NCBI RefSeq assembly: GCF_023518235.1 | Contig: NZ_CP090423.1 | Coordinates: 1,550,001 to 1,614,000 of the forward strand | DNA: 64,000 bases | DNA from: Stenotrophomonas maltophilia | GTDB lineage: Bacteria > Pseudomonadota > Gammaproteobacteria > Xanthomonadales > Xanthomonadaceae | Direction: 5' to 3' | Part shown: positions 18,140 through 53,998 of the stretch, one piece after another | How the letters are laid out: every line of letters begins with the position of its first letter | Position numbering within the stretch: position 1 is the first letter of the stretch | The notes under the pieces: model-generated | Databases searched by the model: none | The model's input: the letters and a program-made list of their open reading frames with translations, nothing else | Told to the model about the DNA's origin: nothing | Translations under genes and position numbers: made by a program

Positions 18140-19904
18140 CAAGGACGGCGCCCCCGCCTCGACCCCGCCATTGCGCCGCCTCGGCAGCCTGCGCACGTTG
18201 TGGCCGTTCGTGCGCCGCCACAGCGGCCTGTTCAGTGCCTGGCTGCTGGCCCTGGCGGTGTCTTCGGCAGCCACGCTGAGCCTGCCGCCGGCGGTGAAGC
18301 AGATGATCGATCACGGCTTCAGCAGCGGCGGCCAGATCAACCGTGCCTTTGCCCTGTTGATGCTGGTCGCCGTGGTGCTGGCGCTGGCCACCGCCGCGCG
18401 CTTCTACTTCGTGTCGCTGCTGGGCGAGAAGGTCGTGGCCGACCTGCGCAGCCGCCTGTACGCGCACCTGATCCAGCTGGGTGCCGGCTTTCATGACCGC
18501 AGCCGCAGCGGCGAGCTGGTCTCGCGCCTGACCGCCGACAGCGAGCTGCTGCGCAGCGTGGTCGGCTCCACCATGTCGGTTGCGCTGCGCAGCAGCGTCA
18601 CCGTGGTCGGCAGCCTGGCGATGCTGTTCGTCACCAGTCCGCGCCTGGCCGCGTGGTCACTGCTGGGCATTCCGCTTGCGGTGCTGCCGATCATCATCGG
18701 CGCACGCAAGCTGCGCACCGTTGCGCGCAGCAGCCAGGACCGCATCGCCGACGCCAACAGCCTGGCCAGCGAGACCCTGGGCGCGGTGCGCACGGTGCAG
18801 GCCCACGCACGCGAGCCCTACGAGCGTGGCCGCTTCGACCACGCGCTGGGCGATGCGATCAAGGCCGCCCGCCGCCGCATCGGCGCGCAGTCGCTGGTCA
18901 CCGCCAGCGCCATCCTGCTGGTGTTCGGCGCCATCGTCGGCGTGCTGTGGCTGGGCGCGCACGATGTCATCGATGGCCGCCTCAGCGCCGGCACCCTGGG
19001 CCAGTTCGTGCTGTACGCGCTCATCGGCGGCGGCTCGGTCGGTGCACTGGCCGAGGTCTGGAACGAACTGCAGCGCGCGGCCGGCGGCATGGGCCGTATC
19101 GGCGAACTGCTGCAGGAAGACATCGAGATCCGCGCTCCGGCGCAGCCACACGTGCTGCCGCAGCCGCTGCGTGGGCAGATCCAGTTCGAGGATGTGGTGT
19201 TCCACTATCCACAGCGGCCGGACCAGGCCGCACTGGACCACTTCAACCTGCACGTGCGCCCGGGCGAGACCGTGGCCCTGGTCGGACCGTCGGGCGCTGG
19301 CAAGAGCACGGTGCTGTCGATGCTGCTGCGCTTCCATGACCCGGCCGCCGGCCGCATCTGCGTGGATGGTATCGACGTGCGCCAGGTCGATCCGGCCGAA
19401 CTGCGCGCGCAGCTGGCGCTGGTGCCACAGCAGCCGACGCTGTTCGCGGCCAGTGCACGCGACAACATTCGCTACGGCCGCCTGCAGGCCAGCGACGCCG
19501 AGGTCGAGGACGCCGCGCGCGCGGCCGAGGCCGATGGCTTCCTGCGCGCGTTGCCGCACGGCTATGACAGCGAACTGGGCGAACGCGGCGCGCGCCTGTC
19601 CGGCGGCCAGCAGCAGCGCGTAGCGATTGCCCGTGCCCTGCTGAAGGACGCTCCGATCCTGCTGCTGGACGAAGCCACCAGTGCCCTGGATGCGCAGAGC
19701 GAATACGGCGTGCAGCAGGCGCTGGAGCGGCTGATGGCCGGCCGCACCACGCTGGTCATCGCCCACCGCTTGGCCACCGTGCTCAAGGCCGACCGTATCG
19801 TGGTGATGGACCAGGGCCGCATCGTCGCCGAAGGCACGCATGCGCAGCTGCTGGCCGAAGGCGGTCTGTACGCTGAACTGGCACGACTGCAGTTCATCGA
19901 TTGA
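18132..19904 (+). CDS. ABC transporter, fused permease/ATPase (MsbA-like exporter)
   Basis: Half-transporter of 590 residues that should work as a homodimer in the inner membrane. The six-helix domain spans about 25-320, with the first helix near SAWLLALAVSSAATLSL. The ATPase domain (about 345-590) has Walker A GPSGAGKST, Q-loop VPQQPT, signature LSGGQQQR, Walker B ILLLDEATSALD and the H-loop in VIAHRLATV. The ATG at 18132 overlaps the upstream gene's stop by eight bases, so translation is probably coupled. It resembles MsbA/LmrA-type lipid or drug exporters; the substrate cannot be assigned. Confidence 0.92.
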   Translation: MTDKDGAPASTPPLRRLGSLRTLWPFVRRHSGLFSAWLLALAVSSAATLSLPPAVKQMIDHGFSSGGQINRAFALLMLVAVVLALATAARFYFVSLLGEKVVADLRSRLYAHLIQLGAGFHDRSRSGELVSRLTADSELLRSVVGSTMSVALRSSVTVVGSLAMLFVTSPRLAAWSLLGIPLAVLPIIIGARKLRTVARSSQDRIADANSLASETLGAVRTVQAHAREPYERGRFDHALGDAIKAARRRIGAQSLVTASAILLVFGAIVGVLWLGAHDVIDGRLSAGTLGQFVLYALIGGGSVGALAEVWNELQRAAGGMGRIGELLQEDIEIRAPAQPHVLPQPLRGQIQFEDVVFHYPQRPDQAALDHFNLHVRPGETVALVGPSGAGKSTVLSMLLRFHDPAAGRICVDGIDVRQVDPAELRAQLALVPQQPTLFAASARDNIRYGRLQASDAEVEDAARAAEADGFLRALPHGYDSELGERGARLSGGQQQRVAIARALLKDAPILLLDEATSALDAQSEYGVQQALERLMAGRTTLVIAHRLATVLKADRIVVMDQGRIVAEGTHAQLLAEGGLYAELARLQFID

Positions 19905-43149: not shown

Positions 43150-44373
43150 TCAGGCGGCCGGTGCGCGTCGCGAGAACGTGCCGTGCAATGCAGCGGGAAT
43201 CGCAAAGCCCTCCATGCGCACCTCCGGCCGGTAGCCACTGCCTGGCGTGAAGCGGTACTCGCGCGCCAACAACGCGCACAGCAGCACCAGCTGCGCATTG
43301 CCCACCGCCGAACCCACACACGAACGGGTGGGAAACCCGTAGGGCACGTAGATGCCGGCGGTGCGCTTGCGCCGTTCGGGGAGCCAGCGGTCCGGGTCGA
43401 ACCGTAGCGGATCATCCCAGTACTTGGCCGAACGGTGCTGGATGAACGAGCTCAGTTCGAACACGGTGCCTTCGGCGATCGCCTGCCCTTCCACTTCAAG
43501 ATCACAGGCGGCCACCCGGCGGTTGTTGAATGGCGTGGAGTACAGCCGCATCACCTCTTTCAGGAAGCGCATGGTGGCCGGAATGCGCCCCATCGGCAAT
43601 GCGTGGATCTCAGCATCGGACAGCGCCGCGAACTCCTCTTCGATGCGCTGCTGCCATTGCGGATGCATCTGCAACGCCAGCAACAGGCAGGCGGCCATCA
43701 TGCCCGGCACGCCGGAGATGGCGATCAGCTGCACGGTGACCAGATAGGTGACCTTGTCCAGGCCGATGCGTTCGTGCAGCGACAGCAGCGACTGTGCGTA
43801 ATCCAGATGGGAATGACCCGCACGCACGCGTCGTTTCAGTTCGGCGTGGATCACGCGCGACTCGGCGCGGTTGATGAGGAAATTGCGCAACAGGTCGCGA
43901 CGATGGATGACCTGCTCAACCTGGATGCTGTAGCGAAGATGCAGCGCGCGTTCGATGGCGGCCACGCCCCGCGCGTCCAATCCATCGATAACCAGTGGAA
44001 TCAACGGATGAGCCATCACCTTCCAGATGGCCGGCGTTGCGTCCTGTTCGACATCACAGAGCGCGTCCAGCGCCCGCCGCATGCGCGACTGCAGCACCTT
44101 CAATGTCTCCGCGCCGGTGAGTTCGGCACTGCGCGTGGCGATCAGGCTGCGCACTTCGGTCCAGCGCACGCGCTCATGCCGCCGGAACAGGTCCGCCAGC
44201 GATTCGATCACGAACAGATGCTCGGAATTTTCCTTGTCGATCTTTCCGGCCAACTCCGGGCAGAACACCCCGACCCCGCCCGTGTCCAGCTTCAGCACCG
44301 GTCCCTCGCGCTCCACGCGTGCGGCCAGGCGCTCGGCAGCGACGGTGCTGCCTTCGTTCGACGTCCCTTGCAT
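43150..44373 (-). CDS. Cytochrome P450-like enzyme of peptide cassette A
   Basis: 407 residues. ExxR is in FLKEVMRLY; the PERF-type segment is DPLRFDPDRWLPERR; the heme loop is PYGFPTRSCVGSAVG with Cys352. The I-helix, normally AGxET, reads LIAISGVPGMMAACLLLAL, so the acid/alcohol pair used for O2 activation is missing. No ferredoxin or reductase gene lies beside it. GGAGG is eight bases before the ATG at 44373, just after a perfect hairpin, and a 32-codon peptide gene lies 83 bases upstream. I infer it crosslinks or oxidises that peptide. A TTG at 44391 is a poorer start. Confidence 0.85.
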   Translation of the reverse strand: MQGTSNEGSTVAAERLAARVEREGPVLKLDTGGVGVFCPELAGKIDKENSEHLFVIESLADLFRRHERVRWTEVRSLIATRSAELTGAETLKVLQSRMRRALDALCDVEQDATPAIWKVMAHPLIPLVIDGLDARGVAAIERALHLRYSIQVEQVIHRRDLLRNFLINRAESRVIHAELKRRVRAGHSHLDYAQSLLSLHERIGLDKVTYLVTVQLIAISGVPGMMAACLLLALQMHPQWQQRIEEEFAALSDAEIHALPMGRIPATMRFLKEVMRLYSTPFNNRRVAACDLEVEGQAIAEGTVFELSSFIQHRSAKYWDDPLRFDPDRWLPERRKRTAGIYVPYGFPTRSCVGSAVGNAQLVLLCALLAREYRFTPGSGYRPEVRMEGFAIPAALHGTFSRRAPAA

Positions 44374-44391: not shown

Positions 44392-44417
44392 GAAGGGACT
44401 CGAAGACGAGTCCCTTC
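44392..44417 (-). promoter_or_regulatory. Perfect hairpin between precursor A and its P450
   Basis: 11-bp stem GAAGGGACTCG/CGAGTCCCTTC with a 4-base loop and no U run. It ends five bases before the P450 Shine-Dalgarno. It could protect or attenuate the transcript so that the peptide is made in excess over the enzyme. Confidence 0.75.
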
Positions 44418-44456: not shown

Positions 44457-44555
44457 TCAGAACTCTACCCAGATCTGCCAGACCGTCCACACACTGCTCT
44501 TTTCGGTCGGATGGATGTTGAGGCTGACGCGCAATGCTCGGGCGAATCTTTTCAT
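44457..44555 (-). CDS. Candidate RiPP precursor peptide A, 32 residues
   Basis: Starts MKRFARALRVSLNI (basic, amphipathic leader) and ends SVWTVWQIWVEF, with Trp23, Trp26, Trp29 and Phe32 evenly spaced by three. The Shine-Dalgarno AAAGGAG is about five bases before the ATG. The leader matches precursor B at 46989-47090 (RALxVSLN), and both genes precede a P450 of the same subfamily. The aromatic tail is the kind of core that P450s crosslink in biarylitides, cittilin and tryptorubin-type peptides. Product and cleavage site are unknown; no protease or exporter gene is adjacent. Confidence 0.75.
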   Translation of the reverse strand: MKRFARALRVSLNIHPTEKSSVWTVWQIWVEF

Positions 44556-44612
44556 GATCACTCCTTTGATTGTGCTTGCTGTGTGGTTATGCCGGGATTA
44601 TCCGGCCCCGGT

Positions 44613-44642
44613 TAGATAACACGACATAATCGCGCTGTCCAA
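44613..44642 (-). promoter_or_regulatory. Candidate promoter of peptide cassette A
   Basis: On the minus strand TTGGAC (44637-44642), an 18-base spacer, then TATCTA (44613-44618), about 57 bases before the precursor ATG. The surrounding stretch is locally AT-richer. Confidence 0.4.
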
Positions 44643-44757
44643 TCCATGCGGGTGGCGCAGTGCAGCATGCCGTGGCGTGAATGTCGCGGGTAAACCCTCA
44701 TCCTGCGTGCGCAGGCACGCCTCTATGCTGGCCGCACATTCCCCCGCGGAGATTGCC

Positions 44758-45630
44758 ATGAATACGCACGATTCCAGCCGCCAGCCCCGTCCCGATCCGG
44801 CCGAGCGCGATGCCTTTTTCCCCTCGCCCTATTCGCTGTCGCAGTTCACCTCGGCACTGAGCGATCTGTCCGGCGCCGATTATCCCGACGCGCGCCGCGA
44901 TGGCCGCTGGAAAGTGCTGATGATCGGCGCCGATGAGCGCTACCTGCCCACGGCCGATGGTCACCTGTTCTCCACCGGCAATCATCCGGTGGAAACCCTG
45001 CTGCCCATGTACCACCTGGACAAGGCCGGGCTGGACATCGATGTGGCGACGCTGTCCGGCAACCCCGTCAAGTTCGAGTGGTGGGCGTTTCCGCGCGAGG
45101 ACCGCGAGATCGGCGGGCTGTACGAACGCTACCAGACACGGTTCCGCCAACCGCTGCGCCTGGATGACGTGGTGGCGGCCCTCGGCGCGGACTCGGACTA
45201 TGCCGCGGTGTTCATTCCCGGCGGCCATGGCGCGCTGCTCGGTCTGCCCGACAGCCGCGCAGTGAAAGCCACCCTGCACTGGGCGATGGCCCAGCAGCGG
45301 CACATCATCACGCTGTGTCATGGCCCCGCCGCGCTGCTGGCGGCAGGCGTCGACGAGGCCGACGGCGGTTCACTGTTCCGTGGCTATCGCATCTGTGCCT
45401 TCCCCGACGCCATGGACCGGCAGACACCGGAGATCGGCTACATGCCGGGCCAGCTGCGCTGGTTCTTCGGCGAGCGCCTGGCGCAGCAGGGGGTGCAGAT
45501 CGTCAACGCTGGCATCGATGGCAGTGTGTTGCAGGACCGTCTGCTGCTGACCGGTGACAGCCCGCTGGCCGGCAATGCACTGGGCAAACTGGCCGCACGT
45601 ACGCTGCTGGACACATTGGCCGGACGCTGA
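44758..45630 (+). CDS. hchA: DJ-1/PfpI family protein, Hsp31/HchA type
   Basis: 290 residues. Matches E. coli Hsp31 in the P domain ([42 protein letters not shown]) and the catalytic elbow [15 protein letters not shown] with Cys187-His188. An acid residue lies in the EWW region. Hsp31 is a holding chaperone with glyoxalase III/deglycase activity in the cytosol. GGAG precedes the ATG. It stands between two precursor-P450 cassettes on the opposite strand and is convergent with cassette B; any link to them is unproven. Confidence 0.93.
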
Positions 45631-45692
45631 GCACGGCCGCCCACGCTGCGCACGCCGGCGCCCACCGACGTGCTGCACGCGGTGGGCGCGGC

Positions 45693-46916
45693 TCAGCCGC
45701 GCGGGATCAACCGGCCGACGAAATCGACCGGATACGCAAAGCCTTCCAGCTGCATCCACGGCGTGGGCTGTGCCTGCACCTGCAACTCGAAATCACGCGT
45801 GACCAGCGCGCAGAACAGCAGCAGCTGGGCGTGCCCGACCGCGCTTCCGATGCAGGCGCGGGAGGAGAATCCGAACGGGACATAGGCGCCCTTGTTGGAC
45901 TGGCGACGCTCCGGCAACCAGCGGTCCGGGTCGAAGCTGTCCGGCGCCTCCCAGAAGTCGGGGGAGTGATGCTGGAAGTAGGACGACAACTCGTACGCAC
46001 CGCCCTTGCGGATGCAGACGCCCTCGATATCGATGTCATGCGACGCCGGACGATGCAGGGCGAACAGACCCGGCCAGAGCCTGAGCGTTTCCTTGACGAA
46101 GCGCGAGGTGCACGGCAGCGATCTGATCGGCAGCGCGTACAGTTCATCCAGGCTGAGCGCCGAGGTTTCCTCGCGGATGCGGGCGTGCCACTGCGGGAAA
46201 CGATGCATGGCGTACAGCAGACTGGCCGCAGTGATGCCCGGCAGGCCCGACATGCCGGCCAGCACCATCGATACCAGGTAGGCGACCCGATCCGCCCCCA
46301 CCCGTGGCACCAGGGGCAGCAGGGAGTGCAGGAAATCCTCGCGCGGCTGCGGCTCGCGCGCCCGGCGCCGGATGTGCCGCGAGACGGTGCGTGCGGCACG
46401 GCGGGAGAGATGGAAATCGATGATCCGGCGCCACCACGAGAAGTTCTGCAGCACGATGGCGTTGTAGCGGGTCTTCTGCTCGCCGATGAGCGCTGCAACA
46501 TCGGCACGACTCAGCCCGTCGATCAGCAGCGGCAACAACGACTGCGATATCGCCCACCAGCTCAACCCACCCAGATCCTGCGGACGCGCCGCACGCTGCA
46601 GAAGAAACGCATGCATGCGTTCATACAGCGCGCGCATCTGCGCGGGCGCGGCCAGGCGCCCAGCCTGCTCGCTCAACAGTGTGCGTACCTCGCGCCACGC
46701 CACCGGGTCCTGCTTGCCACGCAGGCCCAGAAAATCGATCAACGAGTCGGGCACCGTATGCCGGTCGGTGTTGGCCTTGTCGATCCTGACCGCCAGCGCC
46801 GGATCGAAAATACCCACCACATCATTCTGGAACCGCAGCACCGGCCCTTCACGACGTACCCGCTCAAGCAGGTCGTCGATGGACATCACCTCCGCATCCG
46901 CTGCACGCTCATCCAT
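45693..46916 (-). CDS. Cytochrome P450-like enzyme of peptide cassette B
   Basis: 407 residues, the same length as the cassette A enzyme and collinear with it throughout. ExxR is in FVKETLRLW; SFDPDRWLPERR; heme loop VPFGFSSRACIGSAVG with Cys355. The I-helix reads MVLAGMSGLPGITAASLLYA, again without the acid/alcohol pair. The N-termini also match (VRREGPVLRF here, VEREGPVLKL in A). AGGAG lies six bases before the ATG, three bases after a perfect hairpin. Probably modifies precursor B; redox partners must come from elsewhere. Confidence 0.85.
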   Translation of the reverse strand: MDERAADAEVMSIDDLLERVRREGPVLRFQNDVVGIFDPALAVRIDKANTDRHTVPDSLIDFLGLRGKQDPVAWREVRTLLSEQAGRLAAPAQMRALYERMHAFLLQRAARPQDLGGLSWWAISQSLLPLLIDGLSRADVAALIGEQKTRYNAIVLQNFSWWRRIIDFHLSRRAARTVSRHIRRRAREPQPREDFLHSLLPLVPRVGADRVAYLVSMVLAGMSGLPGITAASLLYAMHRFPQWHARIREETSALSLDELYALPIRSLPCTSRFVKETLRLWPGLFALHRPASHDIDIEGVCIRKGGAYELSSYFQHHSPDFWEAPDSFDPDRWLPERRQSNKGAYVPFGFSSRACIGSAVGHAQLLLFCALVTRDFELQVQAQPTPWMQLEGFAYPVDFVGRLIPRG

Positions 46917-46930
46917 GCCCAGCTCCTGAC

Positions 46931-46958
46931 GCCAGGGAGGGCATCGGCCCTCCCTGGC
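46931..46958 (-). promoter_or_regulatory. Perfect hairpin between precursor B and its P450
   Basis: 12-bp stem GCCAGGGAGGGC/GCCCTCCCTGGC with a 4-base loop (ATCG on the plus strand) and no U run. It sits three bases before the P450 Shine-Dalgarno, the same position as in cassette A though the sequence is unrelated. Confidence 0.8.
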
Positions 46959-46988
46959 GATGTCATCGAATACGTCGCGTCCTGCTGC

Positions 46989-47090
46989 TCAGAACAGATT
47001 CCAATAGCGATACCTGGAACGGATGCACTGCGTCGAATTGTCCGAACGCAGGTTCAGTGACACCTGCAACGCACGAATCAGTCGTGTCAT
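46989..47090 (-). CDS. Candidate RiPP precursor peptide B, 33 residues
   Basis: Starts MTRLIRALQVSLNL and ends RSRYRYWNLF, with Tyr27, Trp30 and Phe33 spaced by three and Tyr29 between. The Shine-Dalgarno AAGGAG is seven bases before the ATG. It shares R3, R6-A7-L8, V10-S11-L12-N13 with precursor A, while the middle (RSDNSTQCI) is unrelated: conserved leader, variable core, as in precursor families. It precedes a P450 by 72 bases including a hairpin. One Cys (22) lies before the aromatic tail. Confidence 0.75.
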   Translation of the reverse strand: MTRLIRALQVSLNLRSDNSTQCIRSRYRYWNLF

Positions 47091-48610: not shown

Positions 48611-50032
48611 TTACTGCGCCTGCGCCACGCGGGGCGGCTGCGGCGACTGCCCCCAGCCGCCCAGCGCCTTGTACACGCCCACCACGCTGACGTTGACTTC
48701 GGCTTCGGCCGCCGCCAACGCATCGTCAGCGGCCAACTGCGTGCGCTGCGCATCCAGCAGGGTCAGGAAATCTTCCGAACCCTCGCGGTAGCGGATCTGC
48801 GCCAGCGACTCGGCCCGCCGCGCCGCCTGCGCCTGTTCGACCACGATGCCCAACCGCGCCTGCTGCTTGGAATAGCGGGTCAGTGCATTCTCGGTGTCTT
48901 CCAGGGCCAGCAGCACCGCCTGCTCGTACTGGGCGGCAACGCCTTCGGCCTCGGCCTTGCTGGCCCGCAGGCGTGCGCGCACGGTGCCGAAATCGAATGC
49001 CGCCCAGCTCAGCGACGGCGTCAGCGACCACGCCTTGTTGTTGCCGTTGACCAGGCCGCTGGCATCACCGCCGAGGAAGCCGACAAAACCGGACAGCGAC
49101 AGCCGCGGGAACAGATCGGCGGTGGCCACACCTACGCGTGCCGTGGCAGCGGCCAGGCGACGCTCGGCCACACGCACGTCGGCACGCTGGCGCAGCAGTT
49201 CGCGGGTATCACCCAACGGCAGTGCCTTGGCGAAAGCGGGCACCTCATGCGGTGCCAGCATGTCGGCCAGCACTTCCGGGCGTTGGCCCAGCAGCACGGC
49301 CAGGCGGTTGCGCGACTGCGTCTCGGCCACTTCCAGCAGCGGGATGTCGGCCTCGATCGCCTTCAAGCGGGCACGGCTGCTCTGCACATCCAGCTCGCTG
49401 CCGGCACCCAGTTCCCAGCGTGCCTCGGTCAGCTTCTGCGTATCGCGCAGGTTTACCAGGGTGTGCTGGGCCACGGCGATGCGCTTCTGCGTACCGCGCA
49501 GCTCGAAGTAGTTGCGTGCCACTTCGGCGGCGACCAGCACCTGCGCGTCGGCCAGATTGGCCTGCTCGGCGTCGAGGTCGGCGCGCGCGGCTTCGGCAGC
49601 ACGGCGCTTGCGGCCGAACAGATCCAGCTCCCAGCCGGCGTCGAAGCCGAGCTGGTAGCTTTCACTGAACACCCGCTGCCCACCCAGCTGCGGATCGGGT
49701 TGCTTGCGGCGGTCGTAGCTGCCGCCTGCGGTGACGTGCGGGGCCTGGTCGAAACGGCTTTCGACGAACACCGCGCGGGCCTGGCTGACGCGGGCCACGG
49801 CCACGCGCAGGTCGAGGTTGTCCGACAGCGCACCGTGCACCAGCTGCTCCAGCACCGGATCATCGAACTGCGCCCACCAGCTGGCCACCGGCGAGGCGGT
49901 GCTGAACACCGGCTGCTGGGCACCCTGCAGAACCACCGGTTCCTGCACCGGCGCCTTGTAGTTCGGGCCGACGCTGACACAGCCTGCCAGCACCAGGCTG
50001 GAGACGGCCATCGCCAACGTGCGGATCACCAT
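48611..50032 (-). CDS. smeX: Outer-membrane factor of RND efflux pump (SmeX type)
   Basis: 473 residues. Lipoprotein signal MVIRTLAMAVSSLVLAGCVS with Cys18; GPNYKAPV follows, the NodT/OprM start. Two OEP repeats with long helices (ARVSQARAVFVESRF, YFELRGTQKRIAVAQHTLVN) and GWELDLFGRKRRAAEAARAD. Forms the trimeric exit duct. Overlaps smeU2 by seven bases as last gene of the smeU1-V-W-U2-X operon. The symbol rests on operon order, which is distinctive for S. maltophilia SmeVWX. Confidence 0.9.
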   Translation of the reverse strand: MVIRTLAMAVSSLVLAGCVSVGPNYKAPVQEPVVLQGAQQPVFSTASPVASWWAQFDDPVLEQLVHGALSDNLDLRVAVARVSQARAVFVESRFDQAPHVTAGGSYDRRKQPDPQLGGQRVFSESYQLGFDAGWELDLFGRKRRAAEAARADLDAEQANLADAQVLVAAEVARNYFELRGTQKRIAVAQHTLVNLRDTQKLTEARWELGAGSELDVQSSRARLKAIEADIPLLEVAETQSRNRLAVLLGQRPEVLADMLAPHEVPAFAKALPLGDTRELLRQRADVRVAERRLAAATARVGVATADLFPRLSLSGFVGFLGGDASGLVNGNNKAWSLTPSLSWAAFDFGTVRARLRASKAEAEGVAAQYEQAVLLALEDTENALTRYSKQQARLGIVVEQAQAARRAESLAQIRYREGSEDFLTLLDAQRTQLAADDALAAAEAEVNVSVVGVYKALGGWGQSPQPPRVAQAQ

Positions 50033-50763
50033 GGCAGCACCTCGCCCAGGTAGGTGAAGCTGCCGCTGGCGCCGGATTCACCGATCAGCGCCATTTCCAC
50101 GCTGGAACGTGCGCCTTCGCTGATCTCGATCTCCCCGTTGCCACCGTTCATGTCGGTCTTCACGTACCCGGGATGCACGGTGTTGACCTTGATCGGGGTG
50201 TTGCGCAGTTCGTAGGCCAGGCTCAGGGTCCAGCTGTTCACCGCCGCCTTGGAGGCGTTGTAGGCCGGGACCTTGAAATCGTAGATGCCCGAGGCCGGGT
50301 CGGCATGCAGGGTCTGCGAGCCGAGCATGCTCGAGACGTTGACGATGCGGCCGGACTTGGCCTGCTTGACCAGCGGCAGGAAGGCCTGGGTGACCGCCAC
50401 CAGCGCATACACGTTGGTGTCGAAGGTGCGCTTCCAGGTATCGAGCGACTGTTCCGACGGCGCCTGCGCCGGGTTCTCGATCATGATGCCGGCGTTGTTG
50501 ACCAGGATGTCGAGGCGGCCATGGCGCTGGCGCACCTGCTCGACCGCTTCGGCGATGCTGGCCGCATCGGTCACGTCCAGCTGGATGGCTTCCACCGGCA
50601 GGCCTTCAGCCTGCAGCTTCAGCGCCTGCTCCACGGCGGTCTCGCGCTTGCGGCCGGCCAGCAGCGTGTGCACGCCGGCCTGGGCCAGCTGGCGCACGGT
50701 CTCGGCACCGATACCGCGGGTGGCGCCGGTGACCAGCGCGATCTTGTTCTGATGGGTATTCAT
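50026..50763 (-). CDS. smeU2: Short-chain dehydrogenase/reductase (SmeU2 type)
   Basis: 245 residues. Classical SDR: ALVTGATRGIG (NADP site), DILVNNAGIM, catalytic Ser in IVNVSSMLGS and YNASKAAVN (YxxxK), and VHPGYVKTDM. Starts at the ATG giving MNTHQNKIALVT. It lies between the RND transporter and outer-membrane genes, a position special to the smeU1VWU2X operon. Substrate unknown; a redox-stress role has been suggested for the SmeU proteins. Confidence 0.9.
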   Translation of the reverse strand: MNTHQNKIALVTGATRGIGAETVRQLAQAGVHTLLAGRKRETAVEQALKLQAEGLPVEAIQLDVTDAASIAEAVEQVRQRHGRLDILVNNAGIMIENPAQAPSEQSLDTWKRTFDTNVYALVAVTQAFLPLVKQAKSGRIVNVSSMLGSQTLHADPASGIYDFKVPAYNASKAAVNSWTLSLAYELRNTPIKVNTVHPGYVKTDMNGGNGEIEISEGARSSVEMALIGESGASGSFTYLGEVLPW

Positions 50764-50827
50764 GGATTCATGCCTTGTGAGGGGGAGGCCGCCGCCGGCC
50801 AGTGACCGGCGGCGACGGGGTTCCATG

Positions 50828-53800
50828 TCAGTGGTGGATGGTCGGCTCGCCGTGCTGCACCAGCTGGCCACCGCCGTTGCGGGTGACGAACTTGCGCAGG
50901 GCCACGTAGAACACCGGGGTGAGGAACAGGCCGAACAGGGTCACGCCCAGCATGCCGGCGAACACGGTGATACCGGTCACCGAGCGCACTTCGGCGCCTG
51001 CACCGTGCGACAGCACCAGCGGCACGGTGCCGGCGATGAACGCGATGGAGGTCATCACGATCGGGCGCAGACGCAGGCGGCAGGCTTCCAGCGCGGCTTC
51101 GACGATGCCCTTGCCGCCCATCTCCAGCTCTCTGGCGAACTCGACGATCAGGATCGCGTTCTTGCACGCCAGGCCCATCAGCACCACCAGACCGACCTGC
51201 ACGAACACGTTGTTGTCGCCACCGGTCAGCCACACACCGAACAGCGCGGACAGCAGGGTCATCGGCACGATCAGGATCACCGCCAGCGGCAGCGACCAGC
51301 TCTCGTACAGCGCAGCCAGCACCAGGAAGGCCAGCATGATCGCCACCGGGAACACGATGAAGGCGGCCTTGCCCTGGGTGGCCTGCTGGTAGCTCAGGTC
51401 GGTCCATTCGGTGGTCATGCCCACCGGCAGCACCTTGCCGGCGATCTCGGTCAGCTTGTTCATCGCTTCGGCCGAGGACAGCAGGCGCGGGTCGGCTTCA
51501 CCGGCCAGATCCGCAGCCGGGTAACCGTTGAAGCGCAGCACCGGGTCCGGGCCGAAGGTCTGCTTGATGGTGACCATCGAACCGATCGGCACCATTTCGC
51601 CGCGGTCGTTGCGGGTACGCAGCTTGCCGATGTCCTCGACCGTCTCGCGGAACGGACCGTCGGCCTGCGCGATCACCTGCCAGGTACGGCCGAACTGGTT
51701 GAAGTCGTTGACGTAGGCCGAACCCAGGTAGGTCTGCAGCGTGTCGAACAGCTCGGTGAGCTGCACGCCCTGTGCCTTCGCCTTCACGCGGTCCACCTCG
51801 GCATCCAGCTGCGGCACGTTGGCCTGGTAGCTGGAAATCGGGAAGGCCATGCCCGGGGTCTGCGCGACGGTGCCCTGCATCGCCTGCACGGCGTTCTGGA
51901 GCGCGCCGTAGCCCAGGTTGCCACGGTCCTCGATGAACATCTGGTAGCCGTTGCCGTTGCCCAGGCCGAGGATCGGCGGCGGCATCATCGCGAAGGCGAA
52001 GCCTTCCTGCAGCCCGGCGATCTTCTGGTTGATCTCGGCATTGATCTGCGCAGCGGTACGGCCATGACGCTCGGCGAACGGCTTGAGCGGAATGAACGCC
52101 ACACCGGTGTTCGGCGTATTGGTGAACTGCAGCGCGTTCAGGCCCGGGAACGAAATGGTGTGGGCCACGCCGTCGGTTTCCTGGGCGATCTTGGCGACCT
52201 TGCGCAGCATTTCATCGGTGCGCGCGATCGACGAGCCTTCCGGCAGCTTCACACCGGCAATCAGGTACAGCTTGTCCTGGGTCGGGATGAAGCCCGGCGG
52301 CACCAGCTTGAAGATCACACCGGTACCGACCAGCAGGATCGCGTAGACCACGAACACCGCGCCGCGACGGCCAAGGATGCGAGCCACGCCAAGCTCGTAC
52401 TTCTCCGAACTGGACTTGAAGAAGCGGTTGAACGGACGGAACACCCAGCCGAACAGGCGGTCGATCAGGCGGCTCGGGCCGTCCTTCGGGGCGCCATGGG
52501 CCTTCAGCAGACGCGCGGCCAGGGCCGGCGACAGGGTCAGCGAGTTGATCGCCGAGATCACCGTAGAGATGGCGATGGTGACCGCGAACTGCTTGTAGAA
52601 CTGGCCGGTGACACCGGACAGGAAGGCCATCGGCACGAACACAGCACACAGCACCAGTGCGATCGCCACGATCGGGCCGGACACTTCACGCATGGCCTGG
52701 TGTGCCGCCGCGGTGGGCGACAGGCCTTCTTCGATGTTGCGCTCGACGTTCTCCACCACCACGATCGCGTCATCGACCACGATACCGATCGCCAGCACCA
52801 GTCCGAACAGGCTCAGCGTGTTGATCGAGAAGCCCAGCAGGTACAGCGCAGCGAAGGTACCCACCACCGACACCGGCACCGCGATGAGCGGGATGATCGA
52901 AGCACGCCAGGTCTGCAGGAACAGGATCACCACCAGCACCACCAGCGCGATGGCTTCCAGCAGCGTGGAGACCACGGCCTTGATCGAATCGCGCACGAAG
53001 ATGGTGGTGTCATACACCGCTTCGTACTTCACATCGGCCGGCATGGTCTTCTGCATCTCGTCCATCGTCGAGATGACCTGGTCGCGGATTTCCAGCGCGT
53101 TGGCACCGGGCGACTGGAAGACACCGATACCCACCGCGTTCTTGCCGTCCAGCTGCGAGCGCAGGGTGTAGTCGCCGGCACCCAGTTCCAGGCGGGCCAC
53201 GTCGGCCAGGCGCACGATCTCGCCATCGGTGCCGCTCTTGAGCACGATGTCGCCGAATTCCTTTTCGGTCTTCAGGCGGCCCTGGGCATTGATCAGGGTC
53301 AGGAACTGGCTGTTCGGCAACGGTTCGGCGCCGAGCTGGCCGGCCGACACCTGCACGTTCTGCTCGCGCATGGCGCGCACCACGTCGCTGGCGGTCAAGC
53401 CACGCGAGGCCACCTTGTCCGGGTCCAGCCAGGCGCGCATGGCGTAGTCGCCACCACCGAAGATCTGCGCGTCACCGACGCCGGGGATACGCGCCAGCGC
53501 ATCCTTGACGTGCAGTCGCGCGTAGTTGCGCAGGTACAGGGTGTCGTACTTGCCTTGCGGCGAGGTCAGGTGCACCACCATCAGGAAGGTCGGCGACTGC
53601 TTCTGCGTGGTCACGCCCTGCCGGCGCACGTCCTCGGGCAGGCGCGCCTGCGCCTGCGCCACGCGGTTCTGCACCTTCACCGCCGCCGCGTCCGGGTCGG
53701 TGCCCGGGCGGAAGGTCACGGTCATCTGCAGCACGCCATCGGAACCGGCCACCGACTTCAGGTACATCATGCCTTCGACGCCGTTGATGGCCTCTTCAAG

Positions 53801-53998
53801 CGGCGTGGCAACGGTCTCGGCGATGACCTTGGGGTTGGCGCCCGGATACACCGTGCGCACGACCACCGACGGCGGCACCACTTCCGGGTACTCGCTGATC
53901 GGCAGGATCGGAATCGTGATCAGGCCTGCGGCGAAGATCACGATCGACAGCACCGCCGCGAAGATCGGCCTGTCGATGAAGAAACGGGAAAAGTCCAT
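50828..53998 (-). CDS. smeW: RND multidrug efflux transporter, inner-membrane pump (SmeW type)
   Basis: 1056 residues, usual for HAE1-family pumps. N-terminus MDFSRFFIDRPIFAAVLSIV; porter domains; the TM4 proton-relay segment GIVVDDAIVVVENVERNIEE carries the Asp pair; LSGVTGQFYKQFAVTIAIST; the C-terminal half repeats the fold. Proton-driven drug exporter. SmeVWX overproduction in S. maltophilia raises resistance to quinolones, chloramphenicol and tetracyclines (literature knowledge). Two in-operon SDR genes flank the V-W core. Confidence 0.93.
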   Translation of the reverse strand: MDFSRFFIDRPIFAAVLSIVIFAAGLITIPILPISEYPEVVPPSVVVRTVYPGANPKVIAETVATPLEEAINGVEGMMYLKSVAGSDGVLQMTVTFRPGTDPDAAAVKVQNRVAQAQARLPEDVRRQGVTTQKQSPTFLMVVHLTSPQGKYDTLYLRNYARLHVKDALARIPGVGDAQIFGGGDYAMRAWLDPDKVASRGLTASDVVRAMREQNVQVSAGQLGAEPLPNSQFLTLINAQGRLKTEKEFGDIVLKSGTDGEIVRLADVARLELGAGDYTLRSQLDGKNAVGIGVFQSPGANALEIRDQVISTMDEMQKTMPADVKYEAVYDTTIFVRDSIKAVVSTLLEAIALVVLVVILFLQTWRASIIPLIAVPVSVVGTFAALYLLGFSINTLSLFGLVLAIGIVVDDAIVVVENVERNIEEGLSPTAAAHQAMREVSGPIVAIALVLCAVFVPMAFLSGVTGQFYKQFAVTIAISTVISAINSLTLSPALAARLLKAHGAPKDGPSRLIDRLFGWVFRPFNRFFKSSSEKYELGVARILGRRGAVFVVYAILLVGTGVIFKLVPPGFIPTQDKLYLIAGVKLPEGSSIARTDEMLRKVAKIAQETDGVAHTISFPGLNALQFTNTPNTGVAFIPLKPFAERHGRTAAQINAEINQKIAGLQEGFAFAMMPPPILGLGNGNGYQMFIEDRGNLGYGALQNAVQAMQGTVAQTPGMAFPISSYQANVPQLDAEVDRVKAKAQGVQLTELFDTLQTYLGSAYVNDFNQFGRTWQVIAQADGPFRETVEDIGKLRTRNDRGEMVPIGSMVTIKQTFGPDPVLRFNGYPAADLAGEADPRLLSSAEAMNKLTEIAGKVLPVGMTTEWTDLSYQQATQGKAAFIVFPVAIMLAFLVLAALYESWSLPLAVILIVPMTLLSALFGVWLTGGDNNVFVQVGLVVLMGLACKNAILIVEFARELEMGGKGIVEAALEACRLRLRPIVMTSIAFIAGTVPLVLSHGAGAEVRSVTGITVFAGMLGVTLFGLFLTPVFYVALRKFVTRNGGGQLVQHGEPTIHH

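Follow-up and report, generated by a model that had tools for sequence, protein, structure and literature searches.

What is made by two very short genes, each followed by a cytochrome P450 gene, on the chromosome of Stenotrophomonas maltophilia? The question is raised by a 64,000-nucleotide stretch of forward-strand sequence (RefSeq assembly GCF_023518235.1, contig NZ_CP090423.1, positions 1,550,001 to 1,614,000; here called the window), in which two minus-strand cassettes each consist of a short peptide gene, a strong hairpin, and a gene for a 407-residue P450 (Table 1). The first-pass annotation had described two units of a 32- to 33-codon peptide plus a P450, a layout confirmed by the coordinates and by matches to Pfam PF00067. 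It had also proposed a P450-tailored system for ribosomally synthesized and post-translationally modified peptides (RiPPs). Crosslinked cyclic peptides are of interest as scaffolds for drugs; of those made by P450s, the majority described come from actinomycetes. The evidence below makes the pairing of peptide and P450 as a RiPP system highly probable. The best explanation, which we hold with good confidence, is that the two genes of each cassette form a minimal RiPP cluster whose product carries a P450-made crosslink.

A conserved peptide gene upstream of each P450 gene

The first-pass annotation had staked its proposal on a conserved short frame upstream of homologous P450s. Such a frame was present: in all 41 full-length loci of the P450 family that were read, a homologous peptide preceded the P450. 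Of these loci, 26 are from the genus and 12 from elsewhere in the bacterial family, and the other three are those of Shewanella, Myxococcus, and Rheinheimera among the named-genome matches listed. A P450-B fragment with a stop in genome G009 (L027) lies outside the 41, and L055 and L056 duplicate L028 and L009. Family P450s occurred in 18 of 91 Stenotrophomonas genomes, as 26 full-length copies and one fragment. Among 297 genomes sampled from the bacterial family, 15 contained the P450 at an E value of ≤4e-47, with the next match at 4e-18. A profile of the peptide alone retrieved the same 15 genomes at E values of ≤7e-9, after which came four matches (E values of 0.0018 to 0.008) inside open frames of 136 to 557 codons. 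As precursor genes are very short, annotation may often miss them.

Short frames might lie upstream of ordinary P450s by chance, given that frames of 20 to 60 codons are common in GC-rich DNA. We searched 90 control loci first taken to contain other P450s (L040 to L054 and L060 to L134), which held 13,100 short frames, and found profile hits below an E value of 0.3 in three loci only. These belonged to Amycolatopsis anabasis, Amycolatopsis xylanica, and Lentzea aerocolonigenes (L060 to L062), where the peptide has a second-type P450 on one side and a first-type P450 on the other, and they turned out to be true family members. The ratio of nonsynonymous to synonymous polymorphism (pN/pS), pooled over peptide genes, was 0.24 for 18 type-A, 0.28 for 12 type-B, and 0.34 for 7 type-C genes of 33 codons; this pattern of codon changes is that of a protein under selection. 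Peptide-type labels, assigned from the peptides, were tracked by the P450 clades in a quick tree, where the eight labels required seven changes, the minimum. Chance is thus refuted by the 41 of 41 peptides, the near-empty controls, the pN/pS values of 0.24 to 0.34, and the aromatic residues described below; its probability is negligible.

Searches of viral contigs, which reach close relatives only, returned no match, and plasmid and phage records gave none at E values of ≤1e-30. In a sample of Gammaproteobacteria, only the window genome was positive (1 of 369), and in a sample of the order, two genomes of the genus were (2 of 200). Since ≤4 or ≤9 candidates were scored per genome in the two samples, members may have been missed, and rarity outside the bacterial family is likely rather than demonstrated.

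Putative precursor peptides and the predicted crosslink

Both peptide genes have AAGGAG at Shine-Dalgarno distance before the ATG, in agreement with the strong ribosome-binding sites noted at the first reading. Also as claimed there, peptides A and B share R3, RAL at positions 6 to 8, and VSLN at positions 10 to 13. These positions belong to a putative leader that is kept across phyla: among 39 distinct peptides, Ala stands at position 7 in 38 and Arg or His at position 15 in all 39. Most peptides have a basic residue at position 3, and a hydrophobic pattern runs to the basic residue at position 15.

The C-terminal ends have a fixed frame of their own. Counted from the C terminus, position -7 is Trp or Tyr in 39 of 39 distinct peptides (32 Trp and 7 Tyr, the latter of type B and including peptide B), as is position -4 (25 Tyr and 14 Trp). 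Phe never occurs at either position, and positions -5, -6, and -8 are variable. By type, the -7/-4 pairs are Trp/Trp in A, Tyr/Trp in B, and Trp/Tyr in C and D. The last residue is F, I, L, or V (F in both peptides A and B).

Oxidative coupling needs an indole NH or a phenol OH on residues a set distance apart, here i/i+3, and the restriction of both positions to such residues suggests a likely P450-made crosslink between W26 and W29 in peptide A and between Y27 and W30 in peptide B. Trp-Trp and Trp-Tyr links with i/i+3 spacing are documented for other RiPP P450s in published accounts. In the mechanism that we propose, the product of the short gene would be a precursor whose N-terminal leader is conserved and whose aromatic C-terminal core varies. 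The P450 encoded downstream would oxidize the Trp or Tyr at -7 and join it, with the loss of two hydrogens, to the Trp or Tyr at -4, so that a small macrocycle would form near the C terminus. W23 of peptide A (position -10) is a possible further partner.

Four type-A loci (L002, L019, L020, and L023) have the core WTVWQIWVEF, compared with WNTWPLWVEF in most others. On the quick tree, the P450s of these four loci fall into more than one group, and core exchange between strains is possible.

Features of the P450s

The heme-ligand Cys, the ExxR motif, and the P450 fold were all found in the enzymes. Cys355 (heme), Glu276 and Arg279 (E276xxR279), and Pro226 were invariant in 50 aligned sequences. 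An AlphaFold2 model of P450-B had a predicted local distance difference test score (pLDDT) of 88.5 and a predicted template modeling score (pTM) of 0.88, with the I helix broken at residue 224. Its Foldseek matches were generic P450s of solved structure (CYP184A1, CYP170A1, CYP46A1, and CYP3A) with template modeling scores of about 0.7. P450-A and P450-B are 40% identical, and P450-B, used as a query against its own genome, matched only P450-A and itself.

These enzymes might hydroxylate, nitrate, or otherwise oxidize a Trp or Tyr of the peptide without crosslinking, and a precedent is in print in RufO, a RiPP P450 that nitrates Tyr. However, every peptide type retains both aromatic residues with the i/i+3 spacing unchanged, and neither is ever Phe. 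In addition, the AGHETT stretch of the CYP184A1 I helix aligns with a stretch of the family that has the invariant Pro226 and no conserved acid or Thr. Loss of the usual I-helix acid and Thr suits coupling P450s. We consider oxidation without crosslinking unlikely.

Clusters with a second P450

Larger relatives of the cassettes show what else can accompany the peptide and its P450. In the bacterial-family sample, 8 of 8 type-C clusters contained, in order, a second P450, one to four precursors, the first P450, an exporter of the multidrug and toxic compound extrusion (MATE) family, and two M16 peptidases. Shewanella and Rheinheimera have the second P450 after the first, followed in Rheinheimera by an ATP-binding cassette (ABC) exporter, and in Myxococcus and the three actinobacteria the second P450 precedes the first. 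In these larger relatives, the clustered M16 peptidases and the MATE exporter would probably carry out leader removal and export, tasks that would fall to host proteins in Stenotrophomonas.

A second P450 stood beside 14 of 14 type-C and type-D loci, and a full second P450 was found in none of 10 type-A and type-B loci with 11 to 15 kb of context. A third aromatic residue, Trp or Tyr at position -9, occurred in 25 of 25 distinct C/D peptides and in 0 of 14 distinct A/B peptides. In the fuller relatives, the second P450 thus goes with an extra aromatic residue. As both were confined to types C and D in the loci read, we predict that the second enzyme acts at -9, where it would add a second ring; this proposal seems to us evenly poised between right and wrong.

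The cassettes had first been read as a proteobacterial counterpart, in two copies, of systems described mostly from actinobacteria. The two cassettes stand, but the family is wider than Stenotrophomonas, with a two-P450 form in three phyla. On balance we favor the view that this is an undescribed P450-RiPP family, spread over Pseudomonadota, Myxococcota, and Actinomycetota, whose members have the leader in common and keep the C-terminal frame constant. In it, a dedicated P450 would link -7 to -4, a second, atropopeptide-related P450 would add a ring at -9, and Stenotrophomonas would keep one-enzyme cassettes that are gained and lost. Its value lies in a two-gene system from a Gram-negative genus that is common and easy to grow, together with natural core variants for structure-function work. 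In the open literature, which leaves most subscription papers uncovered, we found no description of it; it may be present, without a name, in large network studies that deal with P450s and short peptides.

Four clusters (L167, L168, L169, and L170) have their precursor genes in tandem, three or four per cluster, and the cores differ; a hairpin followed each of those precursor genes whose spacers were folded. Downstream of the two-P450 cluster of Myxococcus (L058, 7372 to 10836) lie genes for a DUF1552 protein and a large DUF1592/PSCyt3-type protein.

The hairpin between peptide and P450 genes

The stretch between peptide and P450 folds more stably than expected in both cassettes, with a z score of -2.25 for the 100-nucleotide stretch folded in cassette A and of -2.22 for the 90-nucleotide stretch folded in cassette B. 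Over 12 loci, the type-B hairpin has 12 consensus pairs, 3 of which show pair-keeping changes on both sides and 1 of which has one broken cell. Type-A relatives have a similar hairpin at the same place. Calculated without a shuffle control, and with identical spacers shown once, the stem-loop reaches -18 kcal/mol or lower after each of the precursors shown from the window's bacterial family and Myxococcus; in Shewanella and Rheinheimera, the stem-loop is weak (-4.7 to -11.4, likewise without a shuffle control). Rfam contained no match for the hairpin, and no promoter- or terminator-like sites were found. Since no terminator-like site was found, the hairpin more probably serves in processing or stability, and, lying after the precursor stop, it would probably favor the production of more precursor than enzyme.

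A short frame upstream of and in the same direction as an enzyme gene, with many aromatic residues close to its end and with a hairpin after it (one that covaries in type B), also recalls a regulatory leader peptide. Such an attenuator or stalling upstream open reading frame would control the P450 together with the hairpin, and the P450 would act on an unrelated small molecule. Several observations argue against this. Up to four tandem paralogous peptides with differing cores occur in one operon, and in type C, the second P450 gene precedes the peptides. Trp and Tyr interchange at -7 and -4, which is unexpected for an attenuator sensing one amino acid. Moreover, the cluster also includes M16 peptidases and an exporter, and no terminator-like site was found. 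The regulatory explanation is therefore improbable, and a precursor peptide modified by its P450 accounts better for the same arrangement.

Relationship to known P450-made RiPPs

P450-made RiPPs are already known, and they are not confined to actinobacteria. The first-pass annotation had set the cassettes against a mostly actinobacterial background; aminopyruvatide (Burkholderia), myxarylin (myxobacteria), and predicted atropopeptides of Xanthomonas are, however, already in print for Gram-negative bacteria. Mining work on RiPP P450s is reviewed in PMC11002830 and PMC12299652.

The closest likeness is to atropopeptides, the tryptorubin family, which also comprises scabrirubin and, as a subfamily, the bitryptides. 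PMC11450843 defines them by KSLK and an xWxxxx core and predicts them in Xanthomonas, often with proteases nearby. Atropopeptides share with the cassettes a two-gene cluster of a short precursor and a P450, as well as a Trp-x-x-Trp/Tyr core, and the cassettes might simply be their representatives in Stenotrophomonas. The core of our family differs in keeping aromatic residues at -7 and -4 and ending in F, I, L, or V. With regard to the xWxxxx criterion, Trp at -7 is found in 32 of 39 distinct peptides and Tyr in 7. KSLK or a listed variant was found in 0 of 49 peptides gathered from family loci. A KSLK pattern did occur in 7 of the 297 bacterial-family genomes, six with a precursor frame and one (L217) without. 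Each of the six KSLK-type precursors (L218 to L223; for example, MKMLFSLKNLLASKKSLKSYSWYIWY) has a downstream frame matching the P450 profile, and these precursors are consistent with published predictions of atropopeptides in Xanthomonas.

The enzymes divide in the same way. Against the family profile, KSLK-linked P450s scored 39 to 45 bits, compared with 382 to 631 bits for 11 first P450s and 59 to 86 bits for 6 second P450s, and P450-B is 24 to 29% identical to the four KSLK-linked P450s compared. A careful tree, whose reference consisted of 4 of the 6 KSLK-linked P450s (L219 and L220 were left out), all from the same bacterial family and with no published enzyme, placed the window P450 family in one clade (100/99), with the four KSLK-linked P450s outside it. 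The second P450s grouped with the KSLK-linked P450s (97/93). A forced joint clade of the window family and the KSLK-linked P450s was not firmly rejected (approximately unbiased test, P = 0.059, not rejected at 0.05), which leaves some room for the atropopeptide reading. Because KSLK is absent and the P450 clade is separate, the family appears not to belong to the atropopeptides by the published definition, although it is atropopeptide-type in its predicted working; that the cassettes are atropopeptides proper is very improbable.

Other described systems are more distant. Aminopyruvatide ApyO is likewise a RiPP P450 of a Gram-negative bacterium and links a pair of aromatic residues close to the C terminus; it was among the best NCBIfam matches, with 56 to 61 bits against a cutoff of 525. 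PMC13192836 describes an i/i+2 link in YLYD and cooperation with a multinuclear nonheme iron-dependent oxidative enzyme (MNIO), a B12-radical S-adenosylmethionine (SAM) enzyme, a methyltransferase, and RiPP recognition element (RRE) domains. By contrast, the window precursors have no C-terminal Asp, and none of these partners was among the products of the adjacent genes scanned, namely, those for HchA, the Exo_endo_phos protein, and the alpha/beta hydrolase, farther genes being outside the scan. Biarylitides (P450Blt/BytO and myxarylin) also combine a very small precursor with a P450 and are known in myxobacteria as well. Their precursor, according to PMC13417212, has five residues (an 18-bp gene) and forms a tripeptide ring, whereas the family has precursors of 29 to 44 residues and i/i+3 spacing. 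Peptides A and B, with 32 and 33 residues, are therefore not biarylitide-like.

Cihunamides and P450s mined with TrpB as bait (SroB and others) make Trp-Trp and Trp-Tyr (i, i+3) links according to a review. Five precursors from Pseudomonadota, PMC12352619 reports, carried Trp-x-x-Tyr/Trp rings after modification by a P450 from an actinomycete. A P450 of A. xylanica described in print bonds two Trp residues; since the peptide of L061 has one Trp, that enzyme probably belongs to another locus.

Strength of the overall reading

The P450-tailored RiPP proposal of the first-pass annotation is supported by co-occurrence, coding selection, matched clades, invariant Trp/Tyr positions, and the peptidases and exporter of the relatives. 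Several points weigh on the other side. Neither a peptidase nor an exporter turned up in the scan of genes adjoining the two window cassettes, and the relatives' MATE and M16 proteins had no match within the window. The 39 of 39 count overstates the independent evidence because many peptides are near relatives; the agreement of four diverged types is the stronger point. Type A has three Trp residues (-10, -7, and -4) and type B has a Tyr at -5, so that other or extra pairings are possible. The association between -9 and the second P450 represents few independent events because it follows one deep type boundary. The peptide-profile hits in the 297 genomes arose partly by construction, since the profile was built from some of the same loci; their absence from the other genomes did not. 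Finally, on the quick tree, A, B, C, D, and the second P450s each formed one group, and the small labels A2 and C2 did not form single groups.

M16 peptidase matches in the window's own genome were distant only (best, 31%), and consequently we name no leader peptidase. A stretch of the window at 18894 to 19892 shares 32% identity with the ABC exporter adjoining the Rheinheimera cluster and is probably an unrelated transporter. Upstream of cassette B, at 48611 to 53998, are frames resembling an outer membrane factor and a resistance-nodulation-division (RND)-type efflux permease, with no sign of system membership.

Genomic context and gain or loss of the cassettes

The interval 44457 to 47090, bounded by the stop of peptide A and the ATG of peptide B, excludes the P450-A gene and includes plus-strand hchA. 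The region is flanked by genes for an alpha/beta hydrolase and an Exo_endo_phos protein. The GC contents of the cassettes are 0.63 and 0.65, compared with 0.67 for the window.

Table 1 Features of the two cassettes and the gene between them, in window positions (hairpin coordinates in both cassettes were counted by eye)
Feature	Position	Strand	Description
Precursor peptide A	44457..44555	-	ATG at 44555, stop ends at 44457; 32 aa, MKRFARALRVSLNIHPTEKSSVWTVWQIWVEF
Hairpin, peptide A to P450-A (RNA)	44392..44417	-	11-bp stem
Cytochrome P450-A	43150..44373	-	407 aa from ATG; Pfam PF00067, 1.6e-27; type-A clade in tree
hchA (glyoxalase III/DJ-1 family)	44677..45630	+	NCBIfam NF003168, 460.6 bits versus cutoff of 365; separates the cassettes
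Precursor peptide B	46989..47090	-	ATG at 47090, stop ends at 46989; 33 aa, MTRLIRALQVSLNLRSDNSTQCIRSRYRYWNLF
Hairpin, peptide B to P450-B (RNA)	46930..46959	-	13-bp stem, no U-tract
Cytochrome P450-B	45693..46916	-	407 aa from ATG; Pfam PF00067, 1.9e-32

The hchA gene is not thought to be part of the peptide-P450 system and is regarded as a neighbor, because it occurs without any cassette in other Stenotrophomonas genomes. It was found in 37 of the 91 genomes. Of 30 hchA loci read, 9 matched both flanking genes without a P450 (four with an Exo_endo_phos match of only 20 residues). The clearest empty slot is L206, where hchA lies directly between the Exo_endo_phos and alpha/beta hydrolase genes. 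Across Stenotrophomonas, this Exo_endo_phos-hchA-alpha/beta hydrolase slot holds cassette A, cassette B, both, or neither; the cassettes are thus units of gain and loss, in the sense of presence and absence, mostly at one slot. In G009, P450-B is a C-terminal fragment (L186, 2417 to 2728), with no B peptide found and cassette A present. G027, G060, and G074 have cassettes without an hchA match, and in G027 and G074, cassettes A and B are on different contigs.

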